Positions 10,171-60,453 of a stretch of 64,000 nt of DNA are shown here, one piece after another. Every line of letters starts with the position of its first letter. Within the stretch, counting starts at the first letter, position 1. Origin of the DNA: Brachypterus glaber (Eukaryota > Arthropoda > Insecta > Coleoptera > Kateretidae); assembly GCA_958510825.1 (NCBI GenBank), contig OY294049.1, positions 39,398,774 to 39,462,773 of the forward strand. The letters run 5' to 3'. The notes under the pieces were generated by a model, which searched no databases, was not told where the DNA came from, and was given only the letters and a program-made list of their open reading frames with translations. The translations under genes and the position numbers were made by a program.

Positions 10171-10694
10171 CCCTTGTGTAATTAAATATGAGAATTTTCA
10201 ATAGAGCTAAGAACTCGTTTGTTTCAGGGGAAGCACGAAAATAGTTGAAAACTATTCACGACGGGACTGCACTTATTCAGAAAACCCTACACATGCAACG
10301 CCGGAAAGTTTGGAAAATTTACCAGATAGTTTTGGGATTTATTAACATTTCAATGACATTGGAATTACCATATTTATGAAGACAAATGAGAGAATTTGGA
10401 ATACCTCGACCTATCTCAAAAATATTTATTATACATTTATAAACATACATTTGTAAATATTCAGAAAAAAAAATGTTTTGAAAAAAAATGTGTATTTTAA
10501 AAAAATATTCTAATATGAAGTATTTGTGATGATTGTTTTAGATACTTGCATGTATAAAAATACTTGCTTGAAATAAACATATTTAACTAAATAAAAAAAG
10601 AACAATATTTATTTTAAGCTCAATTAGTACCTACTTGTTTCCAAAAAATTAGTATTAACTAGTACTATTTTTACTATTTTTCGTATTTTAACTA

Positions 10695-11118
10695 CACGGA
10701 AAAAAAAATTATAGCTAGGAGCGCTATAACACACATACCAAGCAAATTATAATCGCTTATTATATAAATACAAGGCTTTCTCTTACAATTATGGCAGTCA
10801 GTGTAAAAATTTATATGAAATACTTTAATTGTTTAGTGAATAATAAAATATAACAAATAGTATGGCATTTATAGCTTAAATAGATTTAATTATTGTCCGT
10901 GCTAATAATTTTTATAATATAATGAAATTTCTGTAAATTTATAATAGTGCCTGTAATAAATATAATCGTGTCTGTAATATATATAATCGTTTCCAATTTA
11001 TTTTTAACATTATTAGTTATTGTGTCCCTTATAATCTATAGCTTAAATCACTATAATTTGCCACTGTTACCAAATATCTTATAATGTATAGCGCAGAGCC
11101 CACTAATTTCTTTCCGTG
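10695..11118 (+). mobile_element. MITE family A, copy 2
   Basis: A 424-bp copy, CACGGAAA...TTTCCGTG, flanked by TA on both sides. It is essentially colinear with copies 1, 3 and 4. The surrounding sequence is AT-rich and featureless, so the insertion disrupts nothing recognisable. Confidence 0.93.
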
Positions 11119-11420
11119 TACTCAGTATAAAAATCTACTAGTCTTTTTTCATTTAAGTTTCTTTAAAACTTAAAAAGAAATTTTATCATTCAAGCCAAGC
11201 ACTTTTACCTGATTTAAGTCGAAACCTATTGGTCTAAGTAACTTACTTACTTACTTAACTTAAATTAAGCAAAACATACTTGCGGATATACAAACTTTTG
11301 AGTCAATTTATGTGCATATTACCTGCTTGTTTTTAATAATAATTTATCTGTATGTTAACAAAATCCAAAAAGCATGGCAATGTTTTTGGAAGGGGGCCCG
11401 GGGGTAATGTTTTTTTTACT

Positions 11421-12934: not shown

Positions 12935-13110
12935 AATCAATCTGTATTTTTCGAATCATCGTAGTAATATTGGTAGTCTGCGCAGTTTTGGGCTTCTGGC
13001 CCTCATCAGTACCAAGAGTCAACCCTTGATATAGAAGTAAAGTCATTAGATTGATATATATGTATGCGCCATCTATTTCTAGATGTAGACAACTATTTAT
13101 ACAAGTTTTG
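12935..13110 (-). repeat. Decayed hammerhead retroelement fragment
   Basis: This segment is a diverged relative of the 354-bp unit at 42345-42698. It carries the ribozyme region and then the body GCGCCATCTATTTCTAGATG-TAGACAACTA found also at about 42469-42500. The upstream part (ATCTGTATTTTTCGAATCATCG) corresponds to the unit's TAATCATCG border. No coding capacity. Probable relic of a retrozyme or PLE-type non-autonomous element. Confidence 0.75.
12970..13015 (-). ncRNA. Degenerate type I hammerhead ribozyme
   Basis: On the minus strand: stem I UUGGUA, core CUGAUGA, stem II GGGC-loop CAGAA-GCCC, then AAA where GAA is required, stem III region ACUG-CG-CAGA, C, and stem I return UACCAA. Stems I and II are intact. 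The invariant G of the GAAA box has become A, and the base that should pair across the bottom of stem III is A instead of U. The outer stem I helix of the 42-kb copies (CAGAGU/ACUCUG) is also lost. It is almost certainly inactive. Confidence 0.75.
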
Positions 13111-17510: not shown

Positions 17511-18055
17511 GATTAAGGCGTCTGCATCATTTTCAGACCGTTGGATAGCGTGTGTTCGATTCTCAACCGCGCCGATTGCCTTTTTCAGTTAAATAATAAT
17601 TAAAATTTGGCGAAGGCGTCAGGTAAAACCTAGCCACCCCCCTAAAACTGGTTTGAAAGTCAGTTAAAGTTGGTGGTTTAGCTTAAGTAAACATAAACAC
17701 TGAATAATATAGCAAAAAATGTTAGTGAATTTTAATTTGAAACGTACAACTTGGAAGATAAGTTTTTTTTTAAGTTTAAAGATAACAAGTTAGCGTTTGC
17801 GCAAAGATCATTACACAGTGAGAAGTTTTTTACGAGTCAAAATAGAAAAACAAACAATATAACCCAGAAATTTGGACTTCGGGGATGGGAATTCCCAGAC
17901 CACTTCGTTGTGACCCGAATTCCTAGATTACAGGAAGAAAAAATACGGTACAAATACATATTTGTATCGAGCTGGCCAAATTCAAAAGGAAAAGGCCAAG
18001 ATTCTTTGAAGAAGAAGAAGAAGAATTAGTTAAAATAGTACGAGGTTAAACAAAC
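17511..18055 (+). mobile_element. tRNA-derived SINE, copy 2, split by an insert
   Basis: A tRNA-like head (GATTAAGGCGTCTGC, then a B-box-like TGTTCGATTCT at 17553-17563) is followed by the body seen in the intact SINE at 36645-36938: AATTTGGCGAAGGCG, then TTTGAAAGTCAGTTAAAG. Similarity stops near 17680 and resumes at about 18024 with AATAGTACGAGGTTAAACAA. The head resembles a Ser/Leu-type tRNA D-arm and differs from the head of the 36.6-kb copy although body and tail are shared. No target duplication was identified. Confidence 0.8.
17681..18023 (+). mobile_element. Unknown ~340-bp insert within SINE, ending in (GAA)n
   Basis: Located exactly between the two SINE halves, this sequence ends in GAAGAAGAAGAAGAA, a simple-repeat tail like those of non-LTR retroposons. 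An open frame of 92 codons (17751-18029) runs through most of it. I do not recognise the predicted peptide; its visible features are a Lys/Phe-rich start and the lysine run encoded by the tail. It could be a 5'-truncated LINE end or a retroposed transcript. Confidence 0.5.
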
Positions 18056-19003: not shown

Positions 19004-20092
19004 TTTTGGGTTGGCCAAAGCCGGACAACTAGGCCATTTCTGGTCTTTTTTGTCACCCCAGGCAATCCCAGCCATTTACTAATTTGAGTTCTGCTTGAAC
19101 ATGCCCGTCCTTTCAATAAAGGTCAGGATATTGGCGTTGGAGATCTCTTAGTTCATCTTGGTTTAGTCTTTGAGTTTCAAAGACTTGCAACCTGATCCTG
19201 TCGTATCTGACACACTGGGCTAAGTAATGAGAGTATGTTTCATCCTCTCCGCAATCTGGGCATAGCGGACTCTTTAGAATCCGCATTGTTTCCAGGTGCT
19301 TGCAGTTGCCCGTGAGGACCCCTACAAGTTCTTCCTTTTTCAAGCAACCAGTCGGTCTTTGATTTGCTTGGGCCAGCCAGGAAGTCCTTAGCTTGCCAGC
19401 AACCGTCAACCGCCCTCCATTGCTCCTTTAGCTTGGTATAAGCCCACTCATCGAGAGCGGTCTTTACCTGCTTCCTTGTAACACCCAATATAGGTTCCGG
19501 CCCCGTGCAGGTCATCCCTGATCCGAGTCTTGCAAGTTCATCTGCCTTCTCGTTTCCGGGAATTCCACTATGACCCGGTACCAGTTGAACGTTTTTGGTC
19601 CTTGCTAGCTCTTCCAAGGCTCCTGCACGGAAAAAAAAATTATAGCTAGGAGCGCTATAACACACATACCAAGCAAATTATAATCGCCTCTTATATAAAT
19701 AGAAGGCTTTCTCTTACAATTATGGCAGTCAGTGTAAAAATTTATATGAAATACTTTAATTGTTTAGTGAATAATAAAATATAACAAATAGTATGGCATT
19801 TATAGCTTAAATAGATTTAATTATTGTCCGTGCTAATAATTTTTATAATATAATAAAATTTCTGTAAATTTATAATAGTGCCTGTAATAAATATAATCGT
19901 GTCTGTAATATATATAATCGTTTCCAATTTATTTTTAACATTATTAGTTATTGTATCCCTTATAATCTATAGCTTAAATCACTATAATTTGCCACTGTTA
20001 CCAAATATCTTATAATGTATAGCGCAGAGCCCACTAATTTCTTTCCGTGTGCACACTCCTTGACTAGGAGTGACCTAGTGCTGGGATTGCAC
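19004..20092 (-). pseudogene. 5'-truncated non-LTR retrotransposon: RNase H and zinc knuckle, broken by MITE A
   Basis: Reading the minus strand, a reverse-transcriptase-associated RNase H domain is visible from about 20092 downward: SLLVKEC, then after the MITE insertion ALEELARTKNV and the diagnostic VPGHSGIPGNEKADELARLG. A conserved tail follows with a CX2CX7HX4C knuckle (CPDCG...HYLAQC) and a terminus ILTFIERTGMF with a stop near 19075. The frame is interrupted three times: MITE A copy 3 at 19626-20049, a frameshift near 19330 just after TDWLLEKG, and another near 19130. Everything upstream of RNase H is missing, the usual 5' truncation of LINEs. An A-rich 3' tail ends near 19004. Confidence 0.9.
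19626..20049 (+). mobile_element. MITE family A, copy 3, inserted in LINE RNase H
   Basis: A 424-bp copy, CACGGAAA...TTTCCGTG, flanked here by TG on both sides rather than TA. Removing the element and one TG leaves the minus-strand RNase H frame continuous across the junction. This independently fixes the element's ends and shows a 2-bp duplication. It also shows that MITE A moved after this LINE copy arrived. Confidence 0.94.
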
Positions 20093-20800: not shown

Positions 20801-21345
20801 CATCTATTTTAAATTGATCCAAACCAATGAGGAAAATAAATTTATAAAATAATTCCTTTAAAGGATTTACGAGAATTTATTTAGTTACGTTTTTGTAAAT
20901 TGCTCAGTGATATAGCAGTTTAAATATATTCAGATTGAGTCGGAAGAAATATAAAGTTCTAAAACTAAGAACGAACGATTTGTTTTATTTTATGGTGGCA
21001 AAGATTCACAGTAAAGCTATATACAGGGTTATACTGAAATGGCTTATCAGAGTATTATTGTACAATGACCTTAAAATTTTAATTCTAAAAATATTTTGGA
21101 TACCTCCCCCCTCCAATAGGGGGTGTAGCCGAAATATAAATCTCTACAGCCTTTAATAACGCGAGAAACGGGGTATGAAGTGTATGAATTTTGGTTAATT
21201 TGCGTGATGTATTTTATGGACGACCCCTTTGCGGATTACATTAAATAACGATCCTTATAATTTTTTCAGAAATTTTTAACAAAAATAAAATTGTGTACAT
21301 CCTTTTAGAAACTAGCTTTAATAAGAGCGATTTTTAGACCACCTA
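20801..21345. other. AT-rich stretch with one CAGGGTTAT-type end
   Basis: At about 21022 the sequence TATACAGGGTTATACTGAAA resembles the termini of the T family (43122, 34206, 26347). I could not locate a matching right end, so this is probably a decayed single end. No gene is seen. Confidence 0.4.
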
Positions 21346-21771
21346 CACGGAAAGAAATTAGTGGGCTCTGCGCTATACATTATAAGATATTTGGTAACAG
21401 TGGCAAATTATAGTGATTTAAGCTATAGATTATAAGGGACACAATAACTAATAATGTTAAAAATAAATTGGAAACGATTATATATATTACAGACACGATT
21501 ATATTTATTACAGGCACTATTATAAATTTACAGAAATTTTATTATATTATAAAAATTATTAGCACGGACAATAATTAAATCTATTTAAGCTATAAATGCC
21601 ATACTATTTGTTATATTTTATTATTCACTAAACAATTAAAGTATTTCATATAAATTTTTACACTGACTGCCATAATTGTAAGAGAAAGCCTTGTATTTAT
21701 ATAATAAGCGATTATAATTTGCTTGGTATGTGTGTTATAGCGCTCCTAGCTATAATTTTTTTTTTTCCGTG
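21346..21771 (-). mobile_element. MITE family A, copy 4
   Basis: A full-length 426-bp copy in reverse orientation, CACGGAAAGAAATTAGTGGG on its left and ending CCGTG, flanked by TA on both sides. It lies about 1.3 kb from copy 3 in the opposite direction, so the two copies could pair as a long hairpin in a read-through transcript. Confidence 0.93.
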
Positions 21772-22064
21772 TATAAATTTTATAAGTAACGAATTTCTCT
21801 CTAGGCCTGTATAATAATAAAAAGTCACTACAATTCTATAAATTCTTTCAATTGATATTCCAAATATAAATCTCAAATATAACTGCAATGCTGCATTGCA
21901 GTTAGATTTTGGTATATAATTCTCGTAGTTTACCACCTGACGACACTATAATAGAGTTCACATAGGGTCACTCCATCCAGCGGCGGTTTTTGAAAACCGC
22001 CGTTGCAACGCGTTGATTACACCAGCGAAGCAGATAAAAGTAGGTATAGAAACTCTTACTAAAT

Positions 22065-36644: not shown

Positions 36645-36938
36645 TGGGAGGCATGGCGTAGTGGCTAGCGCATATGTATAGCAAGTCTACTAGCGTGAGT
36701 TCGATTCTCACTGTCGCCGATTTTCCTTTTTCAGTTAATTAATAATTGAAATTTGGCGAAGGCGATAAGTGAAACGGATAATCCCTAGAAACTGGTTCGA
36801 AAGTCAGTATAAGCCGGTGGTTCCCTCTACTACTAGCCCACACAAGTCCTGGACTTAGGGGATGCTTAATTAAGTAGAATAGTACGAGGTTAAACAAACA
36901 AACAAACAAACAAACAAACAAACAAACAAAAACAAACA
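36645..36938 (+). mobile_element. Intact tRNA-derived SINE with target duplication
   Basis: The head contains a pol III A box TGGCGTAGTGG (36654-36664) and B box AGTTCGATTCT (36698-36708), about 34 bp apart, inside a tRNA-like start GGGAGGCATGGCGTAGTGGC. The body follows (AATTTGGCGAAGGCG, CTGGTTCGAAAGTCAG, GCCGGTGGTTCCCTC, ACTAGCCCACACAAGTCCTG), then a 3' end TAGTACGAGGTTAAACAAAC reiterated as (AAAC)n. The flanks are ATACAAT at 36638-36644 and 36939-36945, a 7-bp target duplication. The Val-Cys-Leu-Phe frame on the other strand is the tail read in reverse. Confidence 0.93.
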
Positions 36939-42276: not shown

Positions 42277-42328
42277 TTATAAAAAAATTCTATTTATTAT
42301 TCCATCAATCTATTTTCTAATCATCGTA

Positions 42329-42395
42329 CAGAGTGATATTGGTAGACTGACAGTTTCGGGCTGCTGGCCCTCTTCAGTACCAAGAGTCAACTCTG
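42329..42395 (-). ncRNA. Type I hammerhead ribozyme, copy 1 (intact)
   Basis: Core on the minus strand, 42383 down to 42339: stem I UUGGUA; CUGAAGA; stem II GGGC, loop CAGCA, GCCC; GAA; stem III ACU, loop GUC, AGU; C17; stem I return UACCAA. All invariant bases are present. Beyond an internal loop (UGACUC/UAUC), stem I continues with CAGAGU/ACUCUG (42395-42390 with 42334-42329), giving the bulged stem I that natural type I ribozymes use to contact loop II. Predicted cleavage is after C17, between 42345 and 42344. The three-base-pair stem III is short, as in PLE-type hammerheads. Confidence 0.9.
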
Positions 42396-42682
42396 CACGC
42401 TGATTAAGAAAACGTTTTTAGACTTTACTCGCAAAAGGAATATAGCCATTAGATTGATGTAGACTTGTGCGCCATCTATTTCTAGATGTAGACAACTACT
42501 CATACCTCTCCTTATCTGGAGACTTTGAATGGTAGCAAGTTGAAGACTTGTGTGTCTCAAGCACATAGTACCACTAACGGGTGGTTAGACGTAAAATTAG
42601 TAAGGACAGAAATTTTTAATTTTAAACAAAATTATAAAAATATTAATTTATTATTCCATCAATCTATTTTCTAATCATCGTA

Positions 42683-42749
42683 CAGAGTGATATTGGTAGA
42701 CTGACAGTTTCGGGCTGCTGGCCCTCTTCAGTACCAAGAGTCAACTCTG
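42683..42749 (-). ncRNA. Type I hammerhead ribozyme, copy 2 (intact)
   Basis: Identical to copy 1, displaced by exactly 354 bp (core 42737 down to 42693). It has the same stem I, the same CUGAAGA and GAA boxes, the same three-base-pair stem III and the same outer CAGAGU/ACUCUG helix. Predicted cleavage lies between 42699 and 42698. Cleavage at both copies of a minus-strand transcript would release a linear RNA covering 42698 to 42345, 354 nt, with ends suitable for ligation into a circle. Confidence 0.9.
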
Positions 42750-42897
42750 CACGCTGATTAAGAAAACGTTTTTAGACTTTACTCGCAAAAGGAATATAGC
42801 CATTACGATGATTAGAAAATAGATTGATGGAATAATAAATTAATATTTTTATAATTTTGTTTAAAATTAAAAATTTCTGTCCTTATAAAAAAATTCT

Positions 42898-57477: not shown

Positions 57478-58419
57478 TAAAAAACCAAAATAATTTTTAA
57501 AATTTAAAGGTAATAAGACCCTGAAGGAAATCGATTTTAAAAGGTTTTGGCTGAAATCCCATAATTAGGTATTATTTTTTTCAGTAAATAATAATTTGAC
57601 AGCTATGTAGCTACATTTAGGGGCAATTTCCTAGGAAGATATCTTGATTCATTTGAAAATCTGGATTATGCCCCCTTTGTTTCCCTGCACCCTTTATCTA
57701 TTTTTGAGAAAGATACTTATTTGCAGATTTTACACTTACCTATATATAAAGATTTGGATTATTTAAGCAGATCTTACCTGAAAAAAATAAAAAATAGTTA
57801 ATAAAAAAATAAATAATACTTAATTACGAAAATCCGTGCCACGAAAAATGTTACTTTTTAAAAGGCTATAACTCCTTTGATATTAAGTTTAGGTATTTTG
57901 GTGAAGAATACTTTTTTGCTCAGTTTTAAACGAAGAATCGCCCTGTAGAATTAAAATTTTATTGGTACTTTTTTTGTTCCTCATTCAGCATGTCCATCTT
58001 CGAAGGGGCGCAGCTCCCTTAGGGCTTATTTCCGGGCCTTTTTTTCATATTTTGTAACGTAAAATAACCTCTTAAATTTCTCGAACTTATTTCTGAATAA
58101 CCCTATATAAAATTTATTTTCAGAAAAATTGCATTAGTTTTTCAGAAGAATCTTTGTTGTTTATGTCACATTTGTTCGCTATATCATTGCAAAATTATGT
58201 CAACCTTAATGTTACATGTATGATATTTATGTCTTCTGTGCTATGTAGGTGTATTGTTACAGTTTTATATTTTAAACGTGCTTTGTACGTTCTACAATTT
58301 ATTATATTTACCACATATATTATATTATCTTTGTTGGTTGCCTTTCTGAAAACGTTTCATATCATTTTAGTGTTAAAATGTTTATATTATGTTAAAAAAT
58401 AATAATTAAATATATTATA
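57478..58419. other. Intergenic stretch with T-family right end
   Basis: CAGCTCCCTTAGGGCTTATT, TCCGG, TTTTTTTCATATTTT, then TTATTTCTGAATAACCCTA at about 58008-58106 match the right half of element T copy 1 (43600-43697). The left end is absent. The frame at 58154-58402 is hydrophobic and AT-rich with no recognised family. Confidence 0.5.
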
Positions 58420-58680
58420 AATCTATTTATAATCATCGTATAGTAGACCACAAACATAAGAGATTTTTTTTAGCGAACATTTTTTCTGGCGCGTGTCAAG
58501 GTATATTGTCATCAGTCGCTGTCTCACATTTATTAGTTTCAAATGTAAACATTCTAGTACATCTCTGGCGTCTACTATATAGAGTGATATTGGTAGCCAG
58601 CTACAGTCAACAGTATCTGTACGATGAAAAATATATTTATAATTTTGATTAAAATTAAAAAAAATCTTGTCATCATGTTA
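58420..58680 (-). repeat. Relic of the hammerhead retroelement, core lost
   Basis: TCTATTTATAATCATCGTAT at the left and TATAGAGTGATATTGGTAG, then GTACGATGAAAAATATATTT, TAATTTTGATTAAAATTAAA at the right match the border, stem I side and inverted tail of the 42-kb insertion. About 130 bp interrupt the left part at 58446-58575, and the CUGANGA/GAAA boxes are not preserved. It shows the same order (border, stem I, inverted tail) in a decayed copy. Confidence 0.6.
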
Positions 58681-60453
58681 AAAAATAGTTGTTTCAAAGT
58701 CAAGATTAGATATAACGACTTTTAAGGAAGATACTATGCGTGACAAGTCAGGAGACTCTTGAAACGTCTAGTCCAACAAAGAGGCAGTTCTGGCCTTGGC
58801 GCATACGGTATGCATATGGCATATAGGCGGTCACGATAAGAATCAAGCTTCTATATTATATTCTTATTTAAATAAGTTATACCTATTCAAAGTTGCACCC
58901 ATTTACGGTACATAAAATTTTATTATTCTATTTGTGACATCCATGCCGTTTATATAATGTCATGGAAAGGGGAATGGTAGAATTTTGAAGTTCAGCAGAC
59001 CATTACAACTGGTAAAATTGTTCGTTACAAAATTGTGACCATTCCAGTTGAAGTAAAACGTATTCATTAATTTTGTTTGCTCTTCTGAAAGCTAATTGAC
59101 TGTCGAAGTTTTTGTTTTTGAAGCGTCATTTATGTTGAGTTTCTTACAATACTCCTACTGCGCCATGTATTTTGTATGTATTATCTAAATTTAAGTAAAA
59201 AAATAATTAAATATTTTTTGACATGTCGCACACTGAAAACTAAACCGTCACAACTTGAAATTTTTGATTTTGAGATTTTGTGCTAAAATGACATAAAATT
59301 AAGCCACCTATCTATTGAAAGATTAATTAGCTACAAATGGACACTATGGTCTGTTTTTTCAAGCAAGATAGTAAATTAAAAATCGCATAGTTTTGCTATT
59401 ATCTAAACACACAGTTTTCATTCAAATTTTCTGTCAATGGAAATAATTACTCCAGGGTCGTAATTATTTCCAGACAGCAAATTTTCATGGAAACAGCGAA
59501 TTTTTCCCGCATAATTCTCAGCCTGTAATTATATATCGTAGATTTGTAAATGATCTGGAACTATATTGAACATTTTTATTCTGTCAACGTGACCATTTCA
59601 GTTTTAATGACTTCCATAAAAGCAATTGCATAAATTAAAAAGCAACAAATCTAGAAAAATATTCTTTTTCTGATGAAAAGGCAAAAATGTATTTATTTCA
59701 GCAATCTTATACAGAGCTTCAGTTACTAATATTATAAAAACGTTTTTCTAGATCAGAATAAATGAAGAGGCTTTTCATAAGGGGGTGAAATTTCACTCGA
59801 ATTTTTAGGAGTATTTTCGGATATCACTAAACACAAATTTTTATTTTTTTTTAATTCAAATTAACGGATCCAATTATCCAAAAATTGGTACTTGGACTAG
59901 GTTTTTTAGGTCTTTAAATGAAACTGTTCAAAATTATATAATTTTGCACTTTTTATATATAACTATGCAAAACGGCTAAAAAAGTTTTTATTGTTAAATT
60001 TTCTAATTAAATGGTGCTTTTCATTTTTGTTTTGGATAGGTTAAACAGTTTTAAAAATATACTCGTCCGAAAAATTTAAAGTAAAGCAAAATCCGCCACT
60101 CCTTTTACCACTCCAGCTTCAATATTATCGCTGCTTTGAGTTATTTATGAGGATTATGTGTCATACTGTCGATTTTATGAAAAAACGCAGATGTTACCAA
60201 AATAACATTTACTCGCCTTATGAATGTTACCCTCTTTAAATGCCGATAAAAGGCGAAAATTTCTAGAAATCAAGTGCCATCCAAGTCCGATTTCTCCCAG
60301 ACAGGGATAATGTCATTACAAGGATCAATGATAAAGTTTTAAGATAATTTTTCTGGTTACATTCAGTGGTTTGGAGGTTTTCCATAAGGCGGGCTAAAAA
60401 AGTATTTTTTTATGTACAAGGAGAAACAATTTAGAAACCATTACCAAAAAATA
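58681..60453. other. Intergenic stretch with short F fragment
   Basis: 59411-59520 is a third, shorter copy of repeat F's hairpin region (CACAGTTTTCATTCAAATTT, GGAAATAATTACTCCAGG, TTATTTCCAGACAGCAAATT). The rest contains no recognised gene or repeat. Confidence 0.6.

Follow-up and report, generated by a model that had tools for sequence, protein, structure and literature searches.

Insertions of a hammerhead retrozyme in the beetle Brachypterus glaber pair two fixed start sites head to head, probably through Penelope-type machinery

Introduction

The mobiliser of animal retrozymes is left open ('LINEs or PLEs') by Cervera and de la Pena 2020, where Penelope-like elements (PLEs) are named as a strong candidate, without demonstration (PMC7229834). 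A later review also leaves the mobiliser open and repeats the PLE candidacy (PMC11722881). Statements about published papers, here and below, refer to excerpts of those papers unless the main text is named; in the main text of PMC7229834, the words 'inverted' and 'head-to-head' occur zero times.

For PLEs, work with a purified Penelope-like protein from the green anole shows cleavage of AT-rich DNA on both strands and extension of both; reverse transcription starts, without target homology, at two adjacent internal sites that bound a genomic 'tail' (PMC11167929). The in vitro start site is the same for both strands, and a dimer is predicted for this protein; that paper is silent on retrozymes and on circular RNA. 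Genomic copies of Penelope contain an inverted pLTR, and a 31-bp tail is optional on one inverted pLTR (PMC3846280). Hammerheads of PLEs are usually without stem III (PMC7761336). Within the CC-licensed literature, outside which most subscription papers lie, we found no paper in which 'retrozyme' and 'twin priming' occur together and, at partial coverage, none linking a retrozyme to a Penelope tail.

Here we analyse an insertion within a 64,000-nt stretch of the B. glaber genome (contig OY294049.1; hereafter the window), together with its relatives elsewhere in the assembly. By the features tested, the element appears to be a non-autonomous, animal-type non-LTR retrozyme. This kind of element is already known; the notable part is its regular, dual-primed insertion from paired sites.

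Results

The insertion is a head-to-head structure with two hammerheads

We interrogated the minus strand of the window around the insertion and assigned its parts to two convergent cDNAs (Table 1), where M numbers refer to the 354-nt monomer. A sequence-only reading of this DNA had described a discrete insertion bounded by a perfect 15-bp direct repeat. We confirmed this, as the 15-mer (TTATAAAAAAATTCT) is perfect and is present in the window solely at 42277 and 42883. That reading overlooked a perfect 82-bp inverted repeat (42601-42682 and 42804-42885, 100% complementary), which makes the insertion a head-to-head structure rather than a plain partial tandem. Between its two target duplications lie an 82-nt inverted arm and then about 1.45 units in sense orientation, with the inverted arm starting at CCTTA (M98) and the sense part ending at AATAATAAAT (M53). 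Since 42292-42451 and 42646-42805 are identical over 160 bp, the insert comprises a single full unit from cut to cut, together with a partial second one. The two cDNAs of the window overlap by 2 nt, or by 13 nt under inward extension. The window's unit has a G+C of 0.36 and no stop-free stretch of more than 65 aa in four laps, while the 591-bp insert contains no ORF of at least 90 aa. The longest A run in the insert is 5, and there is no poly-A tail.

Table 1. Parts of the insertion and their positions in the window.
Feature	Position	Strand	Remarks
Target-site duplication, copy beside alpha end	42277..42291		identical 15-mer TTATAAAAAAATTCT
Target-site duplication, copy beside beta end	42883..42897		15-mer; TTA 42883-42885 common to the element's beta end
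cDNA1, sense part	42292..42805	-	alpha start (M53 = 42292), spans two hammerheads, end near M248
cDNA2, inverted part	42804..42885	+	beta start M98, end M17; matches 42601-42682 perfectly in inverted orientation
Hammerhead ribozyme 1, type I	42329..42395	-	predicted cleavage between 42345 and 42344
Hammerhead ribozyme 2, type I	42683..42749	-	predicted cleavage between 42699 and 42698
354-nt monomer, predicted cleavage product, genomic array unit	42345..42698	-	M1 = 42698, M354 = 42345
45-nt 'tail' M54-M98 between alpha and beta start sites	42601..42645	-	from ends across copies

On the minus strand, the pair of identical type I hammerheads with a spacing of 354 bp was recovered both from the sequence and with scripts, in agreement with the sequence-only reading. 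The invariant core bases, stems I-III and the outer stem I (CAGAGU/ACUCUG) that it had listed are all present in both copies. Specifically, the core consists of CUGAAGA, GAAA and GUC, stem I of 6 bp (UUGGUA/UACCAA) plus the outer pairing, and stems II and III of 4 bp each, counting A15.1-U16.1 in stem III. In RNA sense, the motif reads CAGAGU-UGACUC-UUGGUA / CUGAAGA / GGGC-CAGCA-GCCC / GAAA / CUGUCAG / UC^UACCAA-UAUC-ACUCUG, with ^ at the predicted cleavage site. A strict search that required the core, with no fewer than 4 bp in stem I and 3 bp in each of stems II and III, gave exactly these two hammerheads in the window and none besides. The same search gave one motif in 300 random windows drawn from a dinucleotide model, and we rejected chance as the source of the two found here. 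The loose core pattern alone is weak, with 52 overlapping matches compared with a shuffle mean of 14 and a largest shuffle value of 47. Across the two genomic samples described below, 168 hammerhead motifs are present in 53 of 65 distinct places.

Two results count against an easy assignment. Rfam reports no hammerhead at its gathering threshold, nor at E<=10 over a stretch of 1.2 kb; its best match in that stretch is a microRNA family on the inverted repeat (E 0.015, far below gathering). In the minimum-energy fold of a 74-nt piece, ACUGA pairs with UCAGU across the core, leaving the hammerhead core unformed (z -0.91), and the predicted fold of the circle likewise pairs ACUGA with UCAGU across the core. 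As a speculation, this competing fold would protect a circle from recutting. Production of a 354-nt RNA, and of a circle, from the minus strand is plausible. Of 300 shuffled versions of the tail, 251 fold as well as the tail does, so we rejected a stable hairpin formed by the tail by itself.

Other repeats are present in the window, among them two diverged relatives of the element that the sequence-only reading had overlooked. One of these relatives lies on the minus strand at 12936-13102, with 82% identity over 12936-13026, the ribozyme part; it has CUGAUGA, and its GAAA is changed to AAAA, so its ribozyme is probably inactive. The other, at 58389-58687, is a second insertion of 273 bp (58402-58674) with a 13-bp target duplication (ATGTTAAAAAATA). 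It has alpha/beta-like inverted ends (TAATCATCGTA ... TACGATGA) around a different middle, no intact hammerhead core is seen in it by inspection, and it is perhaps a sister family that moved likewise. A tRNA-Ala-like match at 36647-36822 runs into sequence repeated at 17546-17678 (79%); a tRNA-derived SINE, of which this match would be the head, is more likely here than a tRNA gene. A repeat of about 430 bp occurs in four copies (1774-2211, 10693-11135, 19623-20050 and 21329-21773) that are 97-99% identical and found in both orientations; each copy holds three 21-bp tandem units, and the repeat is young.

Related copies are built from near-identical 354-nt units

A DNA search of the 648-Mb genome (842 contigs) gave 306 overlapping matches to the element. 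Set 1 consists of the 39 places scored among 1317 candidate regions, picked by match length and similarity; it is a biased sample of best matches that favours places with two or more hammerheads. Besides the window, 38 of its places were analysed, and end counts use 38 places (39 less L013, whose ends run into other fragments). As the places of set 1 had been picked for their likeness to the window, we repeated the end analysis on set 2, the relatives of the diverged copy at 12936-13102 (L048-L056 and L057-L076). These are 27 distinct and older places, a biased sample as well, being 27 of 39 other scored places among 943 candidates. Left out of set 2 were L057 and L058, which are the same places as L055 and L056, as well as L047, which is the place at 12.9 kb in the window itself.

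The sequence-only reading had proposed a genome search for 354-bp tandem units, and related copies are present. None of the 39 set-1 places lacks a complete cut-to-cut unit, with lengths of 331-354 nt and near identity. The 39 places contain 100 complete units together, 94 of which are exactly 354 nt; units were counted between cleavage motifs (up to two errors) spaced 330-375 nt apart, which misses the damaged units of L043. The window's 354-nt unit is matched identically by 45 of the 100, and the mean is 1.1 differences, an identity that overstates youth because set 1 comprises the best matches. These units nevertheless point to recent activity of the retrozyme. Thus, of the earlier proposal of a 'young retrozyme or PLE-derived' unit, the young retrozyme is borne out by the copies and their identical units, whereas 'PLE-derived' is better replaced by 'PLE-mobilised', given the Penelope-type ends, the stem III and the lack of an ORF.

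At one place, L043 (C16:41985000-41989400), four successive units carry a damaged hammerhead (GCACGAAAAAC) with a T>A change after the cleavage site. This place offers a natural experiment on whether arrays become longer when cleavage is lost.

Insertions pair one alpha end with one beta end

The outer borders of the insertions are of two kinds, alpha, ...GATTGATGGAATAATAAA(T), at about M52, and beta, ...CTGTCCTTA, at about M98. Among the 38 set-1 places examined, both ends are resolved in 31, and 30 of these pair an alpha end with a beta end. If the ends were independent, the probability of at least 30 mixed pairs in 31 would be 1.4e-8. The sole exception (L037) scores as alpha/alpha, though by eye its right border resembles a beta end whose tail has been shortened. 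Only one end is resolved in the remaining seven places (five alpha, two beta), three of which (L017, L021 and L028) are simple sense insertions with a target duplication. The long sense array begins at alpha in 18 and at beta in 12 of the 30 mixed places.

The pairing recurs in set 2. Its 27 distinct places include 18 two-ended inverted ones, and all 12 of these that are classifiable are alpha/beta under class limits (alpha M45-70, beta M92-115) chosen after the positions were known. The other six of the 18 are unclassifiable, and nine of the 27 places show a single orientation only.

Flanking sequences reveal target duplications. A word of at least 10 nt is shared by a place's own two flanks in 28 of 38 places, compared with 18 of 1406 pairings of mismatched flanks; 10 of the 38 share no 10-nt word. 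Exact target duplications of 12-17 bp, with a median of 13, are present in 18 of the 31 two-ended places. Once the duplication is removed, the last template base in these 18 exact cases falls at M47-M55 for alpha and M92-M99 for beta, with 3 of the 36 end positions depending on matches of 2-4 nt (L009, L023 and L035). In four of the 18, the beta start is C99, past any target homology. Satellite DNA spreading without transposition is ruled out by the target duplications together with the fixed ends.

Convergent cDNAs run through the ribozyme junction

Two convergent, head-to-head cDNAs account for 29 of the 31 two-ended places to within 9 nt. In the other two (L009 and L037), internal changes halt the alignment and the two-cDNA model fails. 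Across the 29 places, inverted cDNAs measure 33-420 nt and sense cDNAs 524-5016 nt, the longest of which (L030) corresponds to about 14 laps. Where the two cDNAs join, the overlap ranges from -2 to +5 nt at 23 of the 31 places (mode 2), -9 to -4 in four, and 13 and 22 in two. An overlap of at least 2 nt is found in 16 of 29 joins, where 18% would be expected if the same templates were joined at random (P 7e-6), a chance test in which a few overlaps are inflated because inward extension can overrun (13 versus 2 in the window).

The M354/M1 ribozyme junction is crossed by all 29 sense cDNAs and by 16 of the 29 inverted cDNAs, indicating that the template was uncut or re-joined as a circle, rather than a cut linear monomer. 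We thus excluded a cut linear monomer as the template. The inverted cDNA of L018 ends exactly at M1.

Within set 1, cDNA ends recur at M155-160 as sense 5' junctions (L012, L020, L021, L028, L035, L038 and L040), and they also recur at M211-233 in nine places. Such recurrent ends may represent stops of the reverse transcriptase, or a transcript 5' end near M157.

A Penelope-like remnant is present in the same genome

Using local tblastn of 120 Penelope-type proteins against 300 kb of this genome, we found one fragment at L017:2273-2419, which corresponds to a Penelope C-terminus and borders an assembly gap of 200 N. A Penelope-like remnant is thus present in this genome. After this C-terminus, CTGAAGATGTCTCT...AGAGACGAAACGTC can be read as a minimal hammerhead of the Penelope kind. 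More sequence from the same place (L077 and L078) gave no additional match to the 120 proteins, and the Penelope 3' end that follows the hammerhead at L017/L077 has no likeness to the retrozyme tail by eye.

Discussion

We propose, with a probability of about 0.77, that the element is a non-LTR retrozyme mobilised by Penelope-type machinery with both strands primed. The hammerheads of a minus-strand transcript would cut it into 354-nt units, which may close into circles. A Penelope-type endonuclease/reverse transcriptase would cut the two strands of an AT-rich site at positions separated by about 12-17 bp, and both cut 3' ends would serve as primers, with retrozyme RNA, either uncut or circular, as the template. 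Synthesis from one strand would start at alpha (about M52) and from the other at beta (about M98), the two borders of the 45-nt tail. The converging cDNAs would pass the hammerhead junction, one of them for as many as about 14 laps, and would be joined, mostly by a few nt of microhomology. The expected product is head-to-head, with a short inverted arm, a long sense array and the tail on one end only. Several observations weigh against this reading: the anole protein starts alike on both strands in vitro, whereas the two sites are paired here almost without exception; L037 scores as alpha/alpha, and it and L009 do not resolve into two cDNAs; 7 of 38 places have a single resolved end, and 10 of 38 share no 10-nt flank word; the tail by itself folds no better than its shuffles; Rfam is silent on the hammerheads, whose core is displaced in the minimum-energy fold; and the Penelope 3' end at L017/L077 is unlike the retrozyme tail by eye.

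The template of these cDNAs invites a different account, in which no circle takes part: older arrays would have supplied linear multimeric RNA that was copied uncut, or the arrays would have grown afterwards by unequal crossing-over. We regard it as a serious contender that falls somewhat short of an even chance; it covers the template alone and is compatible with Penelope-type priming. The arrays themselves speak for it: L030 shows a near-periodic three-unit pattern, L025 has one plain unit followed by four bearing the same two changes, L043 places its four identically damaged units between intact ones, and a site that is variable across six places (186A>T) is mixed inside L013, L016 and L042. 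One monomer circle is expected to give uniform arrays, so these mosaics make a single pure circle insufficient alone; the block mosaics could reflect later unequal crossing-over, template switching or multimeric templates. Anole Penelope RNA was also inserted in vitro without hammerhead cleavage (PMC11167929). Against multimers stand the 354-nt length of nearly all units (94 of 100) and the mostly intact hammerheads, which should make uncut multimers rare if the ribozyme works, as well as the circular RNAs of animal retrozymes that accumulate in other species (PMC7229834).

The identity of the enzyme can be questioned too, since the retrozyme might have been moved by a LINE through target-primed reverse transcription and ordinary twin priming, an account we consider unlikely. 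LINE twin priming with microhomology yields 5' inversions, and target duplications of 12-17 bp fit LINEs as well; both count in its favour, as do LINE-like remains, namely an RNase H piece below Pfam's cut-off and a reverse transcriptase ORF at L049. In LINE twin priming, however, the position of the second priming event is variable and most insertions carry no inversion, whereas the outer ends here lie at two fixed positions some 45 nt from each other, with pairing in 30 of 31 set-1 places and in all 12 classifiable set-2 places; the lack of a poly-A tail, with no A run longer than 5, argues in the same direction. The likeness to LINE twin priming is a 5' inversion joined by microhomology, and the difference is that the retrozyme uses two fixed start sites, one per strand. 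It is very unlikely, in our judgement, that the element is a decayed PLE reduced to pLTR pieces rather than a retrozyme. The Penelope-like anatomy of its ends (PMC3846280) and the Penelope remains in the same genome would suit such an origin, but all 39 places hold a complete, near-identical unit of 331-354 nt, the window's unit lacks a stop-free stretch of more than 65 aa, and its hammerhead has the stem III that is usually absent from PLE hammerheads (PMC7761336). The lack of an ORF together with stem III argues that the element is not a PLE itself.

Animal retrozymes might more generally be satellites of PLEs, as SINEs are of LINEs, with the tail serving as a two-sided start signal and a Penelope dimer on one RNA obligatorily starting one cDNA per tail border and target strand; we hold the odds for and against this extension to be even. 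Since the two strands behave alike in the anole system in vitro, pairing may depend on an entire complex assembled on a single RNA, for example as a dimer. If this extension were true, insertions would be born head-to-head and dual-primed, and circles would permit many laps. The near-exceptionless pairing of one start site per strand goes beyond the Penelope papers cited here. With dozens of near-identical insertions in one genome, ends, junction and target duplication are all readable, and a likely enzyme is suggested for an element class whose mover is open. The alpha/beta pairing links the question of which enzyme moves retrozymes to how it does so, and it translates directly into a prediction for the in vitro assay with the anole protein.

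Compared with known systems, the element resembles the plant LTR retrozymes in being non-autonomous and in the idea of a hammerhead-bounded circular RNA (PMC4918200). Plant LTR retrozymes have type III hammerheads, an LTR, a PBS, a PPT and 4-bp duplications (PMC7229834, PMC7761336), unlike the type I hammerheads and 12-17 bp duplications found here. With animal non-LTR retrozymes (PMC7229834), it shares a type I hammerhead per unit, non-coding tandem units whose 354 nt and G+C of 0.36 fall within the 150-450 bp and the G+C below 50% given for that group, and target duplications of more than 4 bp (15 bp at the window, 12-17 bp in 18 copies). The head-to-head structure, paired start sites and tail seen here are, in contrast, undescribed for animal retrozymes in the excerpts of that paper. 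With the PLEs (Penelope/Poseidon), the element has in common inverted and direct terminal units, a tail on one end, an AT-rich target, two internal reverse transcription start sites and a hammerhead in the repeat unit (PMC3846280, PMC11167929). It differs from them in lacking a reverse transcriptase or GIY-YIG ORF and in having a hammerhead with stem III. The tail measures 45 nt in the retrozyme compared with 30-40 nt in PLEs, and its pairing, 'optional' in Penelope, is near-obligatory in the retrozyme.
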